In this document: one piece after another, positions 33,461-38,072 of the stretch
Numbering within the stretch: position 1 is the first letter of the stretch
Layout of the letters: each line of letters begins with the position of its first letter
Origin: Bacteroidia bacterium
GTDB taxonomy: Bacteria > Bacteroidota > Bacteroidia > Chitinophagales > JAUHXS01
DNA length: 64,000 nt
NCBI GenBank assembly: GCA_030426955.1
Contig: JAUHXS010000001.1
Coordinates: forward strand, 499,339-563,338
Direction of reading: 5' to 3'
Program-made: the position numbers and the translations under genes
The notes under the pieces: model-generated
Told to the model about the DNA's origin: nothing
Databases searched by the model: none
What the model saw: only the letters and a program-made list of their open reading frames with translations

Positions 33461-34978
33461 TCAAGGCTTAAAACCTATCATTAAGACATCATCCGTCTGT
33501 TCTGTATCAGCTTGCCAAGCCAAAAAGGCTTCATCTAATAATTTTTCTTGATCATCCATAGACTTATCGTATACTTCATGTAGCACCTCTCTCAATCTTC
33601 TATTGGTAAACTTTTTATCATTATCCCCACCAAATTGATCAGGGAAACCATCAGAGAATATGTAGAAAGCATCTCCCTCATTGTATTCAATGGTATGTTT
33701 TGTAAATATGAGATCAGACTCATATTGATTACCACCTATAGGATATTTATCTGCCTTAATCGACAAAAACTCTCCTTTTGAGTAATAATATATTTCCCTA
33801 TTAGCACCTGCATAATCTACCTTTTTATTCTTTTTGTCAATTCTACAAATTGCTAAATCCATTCCATCTTGCGACTCTGAACCTTCCTTGTTTTGCCCAA
33901 GCGCTCTTTTTACTCGCACGTTTAACTTGCTTAAAACTAGATCGACATCAATAGCCCCATCTTCATTAATTACACCATTCAAACTATTACTACCAATCAT
34001 GGACATCAAAGACCCTGGAACACCGTGTCCAGTGCAATCTACAGCTGCTATATAAATGTATCCATCTTTTTCTCTCGACCAGTAAAAATCTCCGCTTACA
34101 ATATCCTTGGGTTTGAAGATTATAAATAGTTCTGTCAGCTTACTTTTAAGAGTATCAATATTAGGTAAAATTGCATCTTGAATTCTCTTCGCATAGTTAA
34201 TACTATCTGTTATTTGAGTATTCGTTTCCGTGATCATTCTTAACTGCTCGTCTAACGTAACATTCTGCTTTTCGATCTCTTTTAACATCTCATTAAAACT
34301 CTCAATCAAACCTCCCACCTCATCATTTGTATATTTTTTGATTCTTATCGAGTAATCTTTATTTACCGATATCTCTTCTGCTTTTCGAGTTAAAAACAAT
34401 AAGGGTTTTGAAATAAGTCGCTGAAATCTAGAAGATAATAAGAACGCTACTAACAACGATATACCTAAAACCCCTCCAATGATTAACATATAATTATATA
34501 GCCTATTAGTATAGACACTTAAATCTGAACAAACGTAGAGTTTGGCAATAGCCTTGCTGTAATCATCCTGATCATGAATTGTAGTATAGAGATGTAGGCT
34601 ATTATCTCCAAAAGTATAGCCATCTTCTTCTAACTTTGGAATTTCAAAGCCTTCTATCCACTCTTCACTAATGTATGTAGCAAATATATCTCCTTCTGGT
34701 GTATAGATAACGGCACCAATTATTTGCTCATCATCTTTTAAAGACCGAAGTACTTCTTCAGCGCTTTGTTTCAGGTTAAACCCTACAGCAGCATTACTAT
34801 TATTGGCAACAATTGTAGCTTTAAGCAACAGGTTATTGGCCATTAATTTTTTAAACTGAACTGTATCAAGTATTAGAAAAAGAGCACAAGCTAAGATCAA
34901 AGAAATACTACTTATTATCATGATAATAAGCATGATTTTCTTCTTTATTGAGGCGTCTCTGAAATTGAGTAAACTCAT
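33461..34978 (-). CDS. CHASE8-HAMP sensor with SpoIIE/PP2C phosphatase output
   Basis: A membrane sensor phosphatase of 505 residues. Order: transmembrane helix 14-37; periplasmic CHASE8-like domain 40-155 (IVANNSNAAVGFNLKQSAEEVLRSL, IIGAVIYTPEGDIFATY); transmembrane helix 163-183; HAMP 184-237; coiled coil 225-265; SpoIIE domain from 290 (IVSGDFYW, AAVDCTGHGVPGSLMSMIG, GMDLAICRI, FSDGFPDQFGG). The metal-binding acids of PP2C are kept (D297, D314, D in FSDG). YfiN of Pseudomonas shares the first parts but has GGDEF. It is the last gene of an operon with yfiR and an OmpA protein, spaced 6 bp. It likely dephosphorylates a Ser/Thr-phosphorylated antagonist; the substrate is not in the window. 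Confidence 0.87.
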   Translation of the reverse strand: MSLLNFRDASIKKKIMLIIMIISSISLILACALFLILDTVQFKKLMANNLLLKATIVANNSNAAVGFNLKQSAEEVLRSLKDDEQIIGAVIYTPEGDIFATYISEEWIEGFEIPKLEEDGYTFGDNSLHLYTTIHDQDDYSKAIAKLYVCSDLSVYTNRLYNYMLIIGGVLGISLLVAFLLSSRFQRLISKPLLFLTRKAEEISVNKDYSIRIKKYTNDEVGGLIESFNEMLKEIEKQNVTLDEQLRMITETNTQITDSINYAKRIQDAILPNIDTLKSKLTELFIIFKPKDIVSGDFYWSREKDGYIYIAAVDCTGHGVPGSLMSMIGSNSLNGVINEDGAIDVDLVLSKLNVRVKRALGQNKEGSESQDGMDLAICRIDKKNKKVDYAGANREIYYYSKGEFLSIKADKYPIGGNQYESDLIFTKHTIEYNEGDAFYIFSDGFPDQFGGDNDKKFTNRRLREVLHEVYDKSMDDQEKLLDEAFLAWQADTEQTDDVLMIGFKP

Positions 34979-34984
34979 ATAATC

Positions 34985-35551
34985 TTACTTGTTAGAATCG
35001 TATTCTTTAACCAATTGTGCTAAAGATAATAATTTAGCACTAATTATTAAATTAGAACGCTCTACTCCAGCTTGATTTATTTCAAACCCATATTTACTGA
35101 CCCTACTCGAAAAGTTAATCATTCCTCCTAATTGACAAAACTCCTCTATATCATTTCCTATTAGCAAAATAGGCTTAGTCTTTAACTGAGATATGATTGC
35201 ACGTGAATTTCCTTTTTGCTCCACTCCAACTAACAAGATTTCTACTTTAGGTACTTCTTTTAGGTTTTCTACTTTTAATACTACTGTTTCTCTTCCCTTT
35301 ATTTGCCTTCCATTCATCACTTTCTCTAATGCTTGGTACATTACATCATCGCCAATTACACCAATTGCGAACGGAGTTGTCTCATTATGAAAGACACCTG
35401 CTGGCCAATCAACAAATTTTGCAAAGTTGTATACAAAACCTGACTTTACCTCCGCTTCAGAAAAATCTGTTTGAGCACTAACACTAAACATAAAACTTCC
35501 TATCACTATAAGTGTTATGATAATATTTTTTATGTATTTAAATATCAGCAT
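34985..35551 (-). CDS. yfiR: YfiR-like periplasmic repressor protein
   Basis: A 188-residue protein with a signal peptide (IIITLIVIGSFMFSVSAQ) and the YfiR/DUF4154 fold: VKSGFVYNFAKFVDWP, FAIGVIGDDVMYQALEKVMNGRQIKGR, ILLVGVEQKGNSRAII, PILLIGNDIEEFCQLGGMINF, FEINQAGVERSNLIISAKLLSLAQLV. YfiR binds and inhibits the periplasmic part of a membrane sensor in Pseudomonas. Only one Cys (C139) is present, so the structural disulfides known there cannot form. It is 4 bp downstream of the OmpA gene and 6 bp upstream of the CHASE8-HAMP-SpoIIE gene, strongly suggesting it controls that sensor. Confidence 0.9.
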   Translation of the reverse strand: MLIFKYIKNIIITLIVIGSFMFSVSAQTDFSEAEVKSGFVYNFAKFVDWPAGVFHNETTPFAIGVIGDDVMYQALEKVMNGRQIKGRETVVLKVENLKEVPKVEILLVGVEQKGNSRAIISQLKTKPILLIGNDIEEFCQLGGMINFSSRVSKYGFEINQAGVERSNLIISAKLLSLAQLVKEYDSNK

Positions 35552-35555
35552 CTAA

Positions 35556-38072
35556 TTATTTCTCTTGCGTTTCTACATCAACTAATATTAACTCTACTCT
35601 TCTATTCAATCTTCTTCCTTCTTCTGTTTTATTGTTTGCAATAGGATTTAACTCTCCTACCGCCTCTATTAAAAGCCTATTGCTACCCATCCCCTTTTTT
35701 TCTACAAGGTATTTTGCGATTTCCTGTACTCTACTTTTTGCCAATTGCTGATTAAACAACTCATCTCCCTGCGCATCAGTATATCCATAAAGCTCTATAC
35801 CCAGTGTTGCTTTCTTAGACGCTAGTTGTGCAATATTATCAATAATACTATATTCCTCTTCTTTTATCTTAAAACTATTCACATCAAAAGTCAAATTAAC
35901 TTTCACTACTTGCTTTCGCTCATTTTTTGGTATCTTATAATTAATTTCCTTAGTCCCATCTTTCTTTTCTTTTCTTTTAATCAAAGAAGTATCCTGTGCG
36001 CTAAAAGAAGGTAATACTAACATTGTATCTCCATCTATTACTACCTTTTCCATTTCTGTGCTGTTATAAAAATATGATTTTCCTACAGAAACGGCAGGGA
36101 CCGTCTTTTCTTTTATTCCGATCGAATCAGACCTATTAATCACATCTAAAACCAACTCAAGAAGCTGATCATCCTCCACTCCAAATGGAGGAATCTCTTT
36201 GATTCGTTTATCTAAGCTATCTCTCAATAAAACACTATCCGTTGTCATAATTAACTCCTTAATTATGTTGAGCAGTGCTTCGTAGTTTTTATCGCTTTGG
36301 GTTTCATCCATCTTATCTTTATGCAAACCTATAATATCTGATGTTATTTCATCCTGAGGTTTTCTAATATCATAAAAAACATTTTTAACAGTAATTTCTT
36401 GTCCTAGTTTTTCTCCAAATCCATTTATAGGCTGTAGAATAATTTCTTGGTACAACTCAAAAAAATAAGATTGATTGGGCACGTAAATATTTACCATACT
36501 AGGCTTATAACCTTCTGCATCTATTATCATATCGTAATTTCTTCCTGGAGGAAATATCATTAAATATTTCCCTGTTTTAGGATTGGGATTGTATATATAT
36601 TTTACCTTTTCACCAATTAGCCTATCCACAACACTAATCTTTGCAGGAACAGGTTTTAAGTTATCTCCGCCCAAAATGACGCCTTTTACCATCGTAATCC
36701 TTACATTACTTAAAGGCATTTTAACCTTATAAATATCTTGGTCTCCATACCCATTTGGTCGAATTGATGCATAATAACCGTTTTGCCCGTCGGCAGATAA
36801 CACAAAGTTCATATCATCATTTACCGTATTGATTGGATGTCCTAAGTTGACAGGAGTTGTCCATTCACCATCTTCGAATTTAGACATGAAAATATCATAT
36901 CCCCCCATACTATTATGTGCGGTAGAGCTAAAATAGAGAATTTTACCACTTGGGTGAATGAATGGCGCACTCTCATTAGAACTACTATTGATCACTTTTC
37001 CCAAATTGATAGGCTTACTCCATATATCGTTGGCTATTAGCTTTACTTTGTAAATATCCATACCACCCCGTCCCTCTGGCCTGTTACTAGAAAAGTAAAT
37101 TTCTGTACCATCAGCGGTAATGCTTGCTCGCTCTTCTACATATTTTGAATTGATATTTCTGCCAGCAGGAACTGGAGTAGTCCATAAATCGCCATCATGT
37201 CGACTAGAATATATGCTACCTGGGTCTTCTAGGTTTTTTCTGTATATAAAGAGTTCTTGACCATCAGGAGATAAGCCTACACTAGCATCATGACCAATAG
37301 TATTTATATTATCGCCAATGCTTTCTGGTTTAGACCATGAACTATCTGGGGTTTTATGACTTATAAAAATATCCTCATTGTAATGCCCTTTGGTTTTATC
37401 TGCTTTATACTTTTCGTTCAGCAATCCACCCTTATTGCCTGGCCTTTCAGAAGTAAATACGATGAGACTTTCATCAGTCGTAATTAAAGGATCATAGTCT
37501 GGGTAAGGGCTATTAACATTAGGCCCTAGGTTTTCTATGGTAACATCTACTGGATTATTAACTAATTCTTTTGCAAATTTTGATGCCTTTATCTTTGACA
37601 AAATAATATCATCATCTATTTTATGCCCTTTTTCTCCTAAAAACTTTGTAAACGCTTTTATCGCTGCATCAAACTGATAATTTAAATGATAAGCTTCCCC
37701 TAAATAAAAATAAAACTCATCAGGCAAATTTTTATGAGGCATCATGGCTTGAGCCCTTTGAAGGTAGGAAAGACTGCTTGCCTTATCGGCCCTAAACTTG
37801 AGGATACAAACCCCTAAGTGATAAGAGACATGACCATCTTTATTGTCGTTGTCATAAAGCGTTTGATACTTCTTCAATGCCATTTCATATTCTTCAGCAT
37901 TAAAGTGCTTGTCAGCCTTTTTCAGTAATGATTTTTCTTCATTAGCATAAGATACAGAAATCCCAGTCACAAAGTAACAAAAGAGCAAAAGCACAAGATA
38001 ACCTACTCCCCTCTTGCATTTTGAGTTAAAGCAACTAAACAATGAGCCTAATACATTATAGCTTCTCAGCAA
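35556..38072 (-). CDS. TPR-PD40-CRD-OmpA protein (PorE-like architecture), non-ATG start
   Basis: An 838-residue exported protein that should bind peptidoglycan. After a signal peptide (GVGYLVLLLFCYFVTGISVSYA) come TPR helices (about 50-165), a PD40 propeller (about 190-440; DPLITTDESLIVFTSERPG, ASITADGTEIYFSSNRPEG, APFIHPSGKILYFSS, YASIRPNGYGDQDIYKV), a carboxypeptidase-regulatory-like domain (about 455-545) and a C-terminal OmpA domain (GYTDAQGDELFNQQLAKSRVQEI, EGRRLNRRVEL). This order is that of PorE, a T9SS accessory protein, and the OmpA part could act like YfiB toward YfiR. No ATG exists before residue 64, so TTG at 38072 (or 38042) is used. First gene of the yfiR-SpoIIE operon. Confidence 0.85.
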   Translation of the reverse strand: MLRSYNVLGSLFSCFNSKCKRGVGYLVLLLFCYFVTGISVSYANEEKSLLKKADKHFNAEEYEMALKKYQTLYDNDNKDGHVSYHLGVCILKFRADKASSLSYLQRAQAMMPHKNLPDEFYFYLGEAYHLNYQFDAAIKAFTKFLGEKGHKIDDDIILSKIKASKFAKELVNNPVDVTIENLGPNVNSPYPDYDPLITTDESLIVFTSERPGNKGGLLNEKYKADKTKGHYNEDIFISHKTPDSSWSKPESIGDNINTIGHDASVGLSPDGQELFIYRKNLEDPGSIYSSRHDGDLWTTPVPAGRNINSKYVEERASITADGTEIYFSSNRPEGRGGMDIYKVKLIANDIWSKPINLGKVINSSSNESAPFIHPSGKILYFSSTAHNSMGGYDIFMSKFEDGEWTTPVNLGHPINTVNDDMNFVLSADGQNGYYASIRPNGYGDQDIYKVKMPLSNVRITMVKGVILGGDNLKPVPAKISVVDRLIGEKVKYIYNPNPKTGKYLMIFPPGRNYDMIIDAEGYKPSMVNIYVPNQSYFFELYQEIILQPINGFGEKLGQEITVKNVFYDIRKPQDEITSDIIGLHKDKMDETQSDKNYEALLNIIKELIMTTDSVLLRDSLDKRIKEIPPFGVEDDQLLELVLDVINRSDSIGIKEKTVPAVSVGKSYFYNSTEMEKVVIDGDTMLVLPSFSAQDTSLIKRKEKKDGTKEINYKIPKNERKQVVKVNLTFDVNSFKIKEEEYSIIDNIAQLASKKATLGIELYGYTDAQGDELFNQQLAKSRVQEIAKYLVEKKGMGSNRLLIEAVGELNPIANNKTEEGRRLNRRVELILVDVETQEK

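Follow-up and report, generated by a model that had tools for sequence, protein, structure and literature searches.

Pseudomonas aeruginosa has distinct Yfi and Sia signaling modules, each of which leads to cyclic diguanylate (c-di-GMP). The AAVVF motif of the Yfi sensor YfiN (residues 66-70) has been genetically implicated in control by, or binding of, YfiR, and the contact residues of the two proteins were defined via loss of repression (PMC3375315). The main text of this 2012 study describes the core of YfiR and YfiN as modular and lists GGDEF-EAL, HPT, histidine kinase, and methyl-accepting chemotaxis protein (MCP) outputs for it (PMC3375315). Here, we describe a three-gene operon in a 64,000-nucleotide stretch of a Bacteroidia genome (the whole stretch is called the window below), which fuses the input of the Yfi module with the output of the Sia module in a genome with no detected GGDEF enzyme. 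Our favored reading, to which we give a probability of about 0.6, is that the operon spans the envelope and joins a Bacteroidota-type Yfi input to a SiaA-type Ser/Thr phosphatase that would act on a SiaC-family protein.

The operon (33461-38072) consists of three minus-strand open reading frames (ORFs) separated by gaps of 4 and 6 bp. An earlier note on this DNA had described such an operon, with an OmpA-domain protein, a YfiR protein, and a CHASE8-HAMP-SpoIIE sensor, and the ORF positions and Pfam domains bear this out; the Pfam matches for all three proteins exceed the curated cut-offs, with the exception of the TPR part. Its interpretation is partly supported: the pairing of a Yfi-type input and a PP2C output stands, and the identity of the OmpA partner, the ancestor, and the class of the output change as described below.

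The 505-amino-acid (aa) sensor is organized as a transmembrane helix, a PAS-like CHASE8 domain, a second transmembrane helix, a HAMP domain, a helical linker, and a SiaA-type SpoIIE/PP2C domain. Pfam matches CHASE8 at residues 44-105 (E-value 1.1e-10), HAMP at 187-236 (8.9e-8), and SpoIIE at 305-501 (5.4e-17). Residues 10-237 match the NCBIfam model 'sensor histidine kinase, YfiR-like protein-associated' (193.0 bits, cut-off 194; E-value 4.9e-57), and residues 10-249 match YfiN/DgcN (E-value 9e-23). An AlphaFold2 model of residues 1-245, built from an alignment of 78 related sequences, has a predicted local distance difference test score (pLDDT) of 94.8, and Foldseek matches the predicted fold to the periplasmic PAS-type domains of WalK, CitA, and a LapD orthologue; CitA served as the template for the modeled periplasmic domain of YfiN (PMC3375315). 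The periplasmic part had been described as CHASE8-like, with an AlphaFold comparison proposed as the check, and both the Pfam match, which is over its cut-off, and the predicted fold agree with that claim.

The 188-aa protein is periplasmic, carries a signal peptide, and matches Pfam DUF4154 'YfiR/HmsC-like' with an E-value of 3.3e-35. It passes the NCBIfam model YfiR_like_TOL0243 (NF053591; 128.2 bits, cut-off 125) and scores below the cut-off of the equivalog for the sequestration protein YfiR (NF053586; 33.4 bits, cut-off 85). Its AlphaFold2 model has a pLDDT of 95.1, and the top 15 Foldseek matches in the PDB are all structures of P. aeruginosa YfiR, confirming, together with the Pfam match, the YfiR/DUF4154 identity first proposed for it. 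Contact residues are kept on both partners. F156 of the window YfiR aligns with Phe162 of P. aeruginosa YfiR, which contacts YfiN, and is conserved; the sensor has AAVGF for AAVVF, and the Phe of this motif (F67) is retained in 124 of the 133 aligned CHASE8 sensors. The retained motif supports a Yfi-type input.

For the output half, the best solved match is P. aeruginosa SiaA (6k4e; E-value 1.1e-35), which covers residues 231-504 and includes the helical linker, and the NCBIfam SiaA model matches residues 164-504 (E-value 3e-63). All of the active-site residues compared with SiaA (PMC7647112) are present, which in sensor numbering are D297, D314, G317, D374, D443, G444, D447, and D496. The genome contains 16 SpoIIE matches, two of which cluster with the phosphatase type of STAS operons and the remaining ones with SiaA (support for the split, 100/100). 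The SpoIIE domain of the window has its highest identity, 49%, to a phosphatase of the genome's SpoIIE-SpoIIE-SiaB-SiaC operon. Judged by these alignments and the tree, the output is a SiaA-type PP2C, pointing to SiaB/SiaC over STAS/sigma partner switching. The replacement of GGDEF by PP2C that had been proposed is therefore upheld by the Pfam SpoIIE match, and of the two routes suggested along with it, partner switching or another phosphorylation cascade, the first is the less likely, since the SiaA-type match and the tree point to SiaB/SiaC.

Both SiaB and SiaC families are encoded in the genome. Three of four SiaC proteins are preceded by SiaB-family kinases that score over the NCBIfam subfamily cut-off, and one such pair follows two sensor phosphatases within its operon (SpoIIE-SpoIIE-SiaB-SiaC); the fourth SiaC is alone. 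The phospho-site motif of SiaC (T68 equivalent), compared via PMC7647112, is kept in these proteins; it is YFNTSSSK-like, and one copy has Ser. A search for GGDEF domains in the genome, which is 97% complete, found none; the same search was positive in 8 of 14 control genomes. A SiaD-type cyclase is therefore excluded as the end point of the Sia pathway in this genome, barring one encoded in the few per cent that are missing. Several loci of this genome concern the same families. At L203:3220-10644 (G000:C11), two large sensor phosphatases, SiaB, and SiaC are followed by sugar-nucleotide/exopolysaccharide-like genes, forming a SiaABC operon without SiaD. The lone SiaC gene (L204:6915-7316; G000:C19) immediately follows ftsA- and ftsZ-like genes, an arrangement hinting that SiaC may be connected with cell division. 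One SiaA-type SpoIIE protein is encoded among the CheB-like, CheA, CheC-like, and CheR-like genes of a chemotaxis-type cluster (L037:126-4864; G000:C12), and another SiaA-type SpoIIE gene is split over two frames by a frameshift or an assembly error (G000:C11:359596-360398).

We surveyed approximately 1,100 different genomes (draws of 398 from the order, 395 from the class, and 395 from the phylum), the first two draws for CHASE8 and the third for relatives of the N-terminal half of the sensor. CHASE8 was detected in 12/398 genomes of the order and 23/395 of the class. Wherever the output of a sensor other than that of the window could be read, it was a histidine kinase, with an MCP in rare cases. 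Sensors left unclassified by our own hidden Markov models were rechecked with Pfam and proved to be EAL-GGDEF, HisKA_2, PAS-rich truncated, or MCP proteins, none of them SpoIIE; one rechecked sensor was a guanylate cyclase and not CHASE8. A scan of species genomes with the YfiR alignment gave at least 80 loci from many phyla, which are a sample and not a census; a second draw from the order overlapped widely with the first, and its new YfiR loci were read short of the end of the neighboring sensor. Among the loci listed, the standard arrangement is TonB receptor, YfiR, and CHASE8-HAMP-kinase, and the Bacteroidota arrangement is OmpA-propeller (~800 aa), YfiR, and CHASE8-HAMP-kinase. Full-length relatives of all three parts of the window operon recur in OmpA-propeller/YfiR/CHASE8 operons across Bacteroidota. 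In the YfiR tree, the window falls in a set of 16 rows (SH-aLRT 98) together with all 13 OmpA-linked rows and two other kinase-output rows, one of which (L105) also has an OmpA-type upstream gene; the CHASE8 tree agrees with weaker support (89). Because the window YfiR lies inside this OmpA-linked, kinase-driving clade, an OmpA-YfiR-CHASE8-kinase operon most likely had its kinase replaced by a phosphatase. A GGDEF circuit, the ancestor implied by the earlier note, is not the relevant one, as the YfiR and CHASE8 trees and the OmpA alignment point to a histidine kinase operon. Conservation beyond this genome, which the note had asked about, is divided: the exact architecture was found in this genome alone among those surveyed, and the input half and the coupling of YfiR to a phosphatase both occur elsewhere. 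In many Bacteroidota, a shorter TPR-propeller protein (634-686 aa) on the opposite strand adjoins the OmpA-YfiR-CHASE8-kinase operon (L116, L123, L141, L144, L170, and L187).

The 838-aa protein has PD40 propeller repeats (Pfam E-value 1.5e-25), an OmpA domain at residues 728-824 (6.6e-17), and a weak TPR match, in the order TPR, PD40 beta-propeller, probable carboxypeptidase-regulatory-like domain (CRD), and C-terminal peptidoglycan-binding OmpA domain. PorE has the plan TPR, propeller, CRD, and OmpA, and binds peptidoglycan (PMC7192894). The nearest NCBIfam models are PorE (242.7 bits, cut-off 600; E-value 6.6e-72) and CHU_0125 OmpA-like, both far below their cut-offs; the YfiB model also remains below its cut-off (68.5 bits, cut-off 128), and no recognizable lipobox was found in the N-terminus. 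We rejected a short YfiB-like lipoprotein on the basis of size, lipobox, and YfiB score, so the YfiB-like partner originally proposed gives way to a large PorE-like TPR-propeller-OmpA protein of the periplasm or outer membrane. It aligns over nearly its full length with the OmpA proteins of Bacteroidota kinase operons at 31-37% identity (37% over 840 columns with that of the OmpA-YfiR-CHASE8-histidine kinase operon L117).

A second YfiR operon in the genome encodes YfiR, a TPR protein (293 aa), and a HAMP-SpoIIE protein (592 aa) with no CHASE8 match. Genomes of two other families of the order (G006, locus L077; G010, locus L078) encode OmpA-propeller, YfiR, TPR, and HAMP-(PAS)-SpoIIE proteins. 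In the YfiR tree, the YfiRs of these TPR-HAMP-SpoIIE operons form a clade of their own, apart from the window YfiR; hence, YfiR apparently became coupled to a phosphatase on at least two occasions, or else the coupling was passed on while the sensor was exchanged. The 132-aa ORF that follows the second YfiR operon was considered as SiaB or SiaC and rejected, as it matches neither. A wider proposal, which we regard as plausible but still tentative, is that the OmpA-propeller protein and YfiR form a transferable envelope-sensing unit, and that Bacteroidota in which no c-di-GMP synthesis is detectable have coupled it two or more times to phosphatases of the SiaA type. The result would be a trans-envelope Ser/Thr dephosphorylation route whose last component, SiaC, has a new target that is not a cyclase.

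We hypothesize that the OmpA domain would anchor the propeller protein to peptidoglycan. Upon envelope disturbance, or binding of a ligand to the TPR/propeller part, the OmpA protein would bind YfiR and remove it from CHASE8. Loss of YfiR would change the CHASE8-HAMP dimer and re-orient the helical linker, making the PP2C domain active. The active phosphatase would remove the phosphate that a SiaB-family kinase had placed on a SiaC-family protein, and SiaC, once free, would engage a partner other than a diguanylate cyclase. By homology to YfiBNR, we presume YfiR to be the inhibitor of the sensor and the 838-aa protein to be the sensor that sequesters YfiR; homology to SiaA suggests phospho-SiaC as the substrate and switching of the PP2C dimer and its linker helices, and we infer the stimulus and the direction of the response.

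Several observations weigh against the proposed circuit. The correlation between the distances of YfiR and its linked sensor (r = 0.80, 101 pairs; no shuffle above 0.23), which speaks for the pairing of the two, is partly shared species history. The cysteines that stabilize P. aeruginosa YfiR are missing: the window YfiR has a single cysteine, C139, aligned with C145, so the C145-C152 disulfide cannot form. On the output side, the window phosphatase has no well-supported sister inside the SiaA-type set. There is no SiaB or SiaC gene inside or adjoining the operon (SiaD is likewise not in the operon), and SiaB/SiaC could be served by any of 13 further SiaA-type domains of this genome; therefore, the substrate assignment is tentative. 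Finally, no second CHASE8-phosphatase was found in the surveyed genomes.

The cysteine pattern, which differs from that of P. aeruginosa YfiR, also speaks for an opposite sign of the interaction. YfiR could be an activating or ligand-binding adaptor that the OmpA-propeller protein scaffolds at the envelope, with the phosphatase on when YfiR is bound, and outside Proteobacteria the usual partners of YfiR are indeed TonB receptors or large propeller proteins and not YfiB. We nevertheless consider this unlikely, given that the YfiN-contact residues, defined in P. aeruginosa by loss of repression (PMC3375315), are kept on both partners. A different target for the same input, STAS anti-sigma-factor antagonists in classical RsbU/SpoIIE partner switching, is suggested by the four STAS matches in the genome and by a SpoIIE gene (C9) that is followed by a STAS gene and an apparent switch kinase. 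However, the window phosphatase lies on the SiaA side of the 100/100 split, away from the STAS-operon phosphatase, and the STAS-linked paralogue is not among its matches in the genome; because of this phosphatase tree, we rank a STAS target below SiaC and hold it to be improbable. That the fusion arose only once or is in decay, with no functioning circuit behind it, as might be suspected from a CHASE8-SpoIIE pairing seen in this genome only, in a family sampled by the window genome alone, is very improbable considering the intact catalytic residues, HAMP domain, motif, and tight operon, and the coupling of YfiR to phosphatases in a separate YfiR clade from three families of the order.

Table 1. 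Positions of the operon's genes and motifs (window numbering) and of the second YfiR operon
Feature	Position	Strand	Basis or content
838-aa OmpA/propeller protein	35556..38072	minus	ORF and Pfam/NCBIfam
188-aa YfiR (DUF4154) protein	34985..35551	minus	ORF and Pfam/NCBIfam
505-aa CHASE8-HAMP-SpoIIE/PP2C sensor	33461..34978	minus	ORF and Pfam/NCBIfam
Sensor AAVGF, residues 63-67	34778..34792	minus	Equivalent of YfiN AAVVF (66-70), alignment of 133 CHASE8 sensors
PP2C metal/catalytic stretch	33491..34090	minus	Alignment with SiaA and 15 paralogues of the same genome
Second YfiR operon	L035:10166-13420 (G000:C10, ~40.2-43.4 kb)		YfiR - TPR - HAMP-SpoIIE

An accC-like gene lies on the same strand 77 bp ahead of the operon, and the gene on the other flank is convergent, on the plus strand. 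Promoter and terminator scans at the operon gave background-level signals only.

The earlier note knew of no described system of this form. We found no paper on YfiR or DUF4154 with SpoIIE in a literature search that was light on subscription papers, and SpoIIE is absent from the main text of PMC3375315, the part searched; the swapping of Yfi outputs, however, was described in 2012 (PMC3375315). What is new is the phosphatase output and the combination, and modular swapping of Yfi outputs was already known.

The operon resembles YfiBNR (TpbB) of P. aeruginosa in its YfiR fold, as predicted, its CHASE8/PAS-HAMP sensor with an AAVVF-type motif, its OmpA/peptidoglycan-binding partner, and its arrangement in one operon. 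It differs in having a SiaA-type PP2C output where YfiBNR has GGDEF, a TPR-propeller-OmpA partner of 838 aa where YfiBNR has a short lipoprotein, and one cysteine in YfiR. A plain YfiBNR assignment was rejected on these grounds and on the NF053586 score. The YfiR-associated histidine kinases with a CHASE8-HAMP half, found in Bacteroidota and other phyla (NCBIfam NF053592 / NF053591), share the YfiR clade, that half, and the gene order, and in Bacteroidota also the upstream OmpA-propeller gene; their output is a histidine kinase, which frequently carries PAS or receiver parts, whereas the window has a phosphatase. Whether the YfiR-CHASE8 pair is a general envelope switch, independent of a GGDEF, histidine kinase, or phosphatase output, becomes testable. 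The operons with HAMP-SpoIIE sensors (C10, G006, and G010) likewise place YfiR beside a sensor phosphatase of the SiaA type, and two of the three also encode an OmpA-propeller protein, but they have no CHASE8 match, an extra TPR protein, and YfiR of another clade. SiaA of P. aeruginosa SiaABCD is the closest solved relative of the PP2C domain and helical linker, with the active site kept, and the window genome encodes SiaB and SiaC families. Unlike SiaABCD, the window sensor has a CHASE8 half with YfiR, its gene stands outside any siaBCD operon, and no GGDEF protein (SiaD) was found in the genome; a plain SiaA assignment was rejected on the siaABCD operon with SiaD and on the score of the full-length equivalog (NF038263; 214.3 bits, cut-off 700, residues 164-504 only). 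The role of SiaC in bacteria without SiaD thereby becomes testable as well. Finally, the 838-aa protein differs from PorE of the type IX secretion system in scoring below the PorE cut-off and in lacking a lipoprotein signal, but shares its TPR-propeller-OmpA multidomain plan, and the operon would tie a PorE-like peptidoglycan-binding protein to intracellular signaling.

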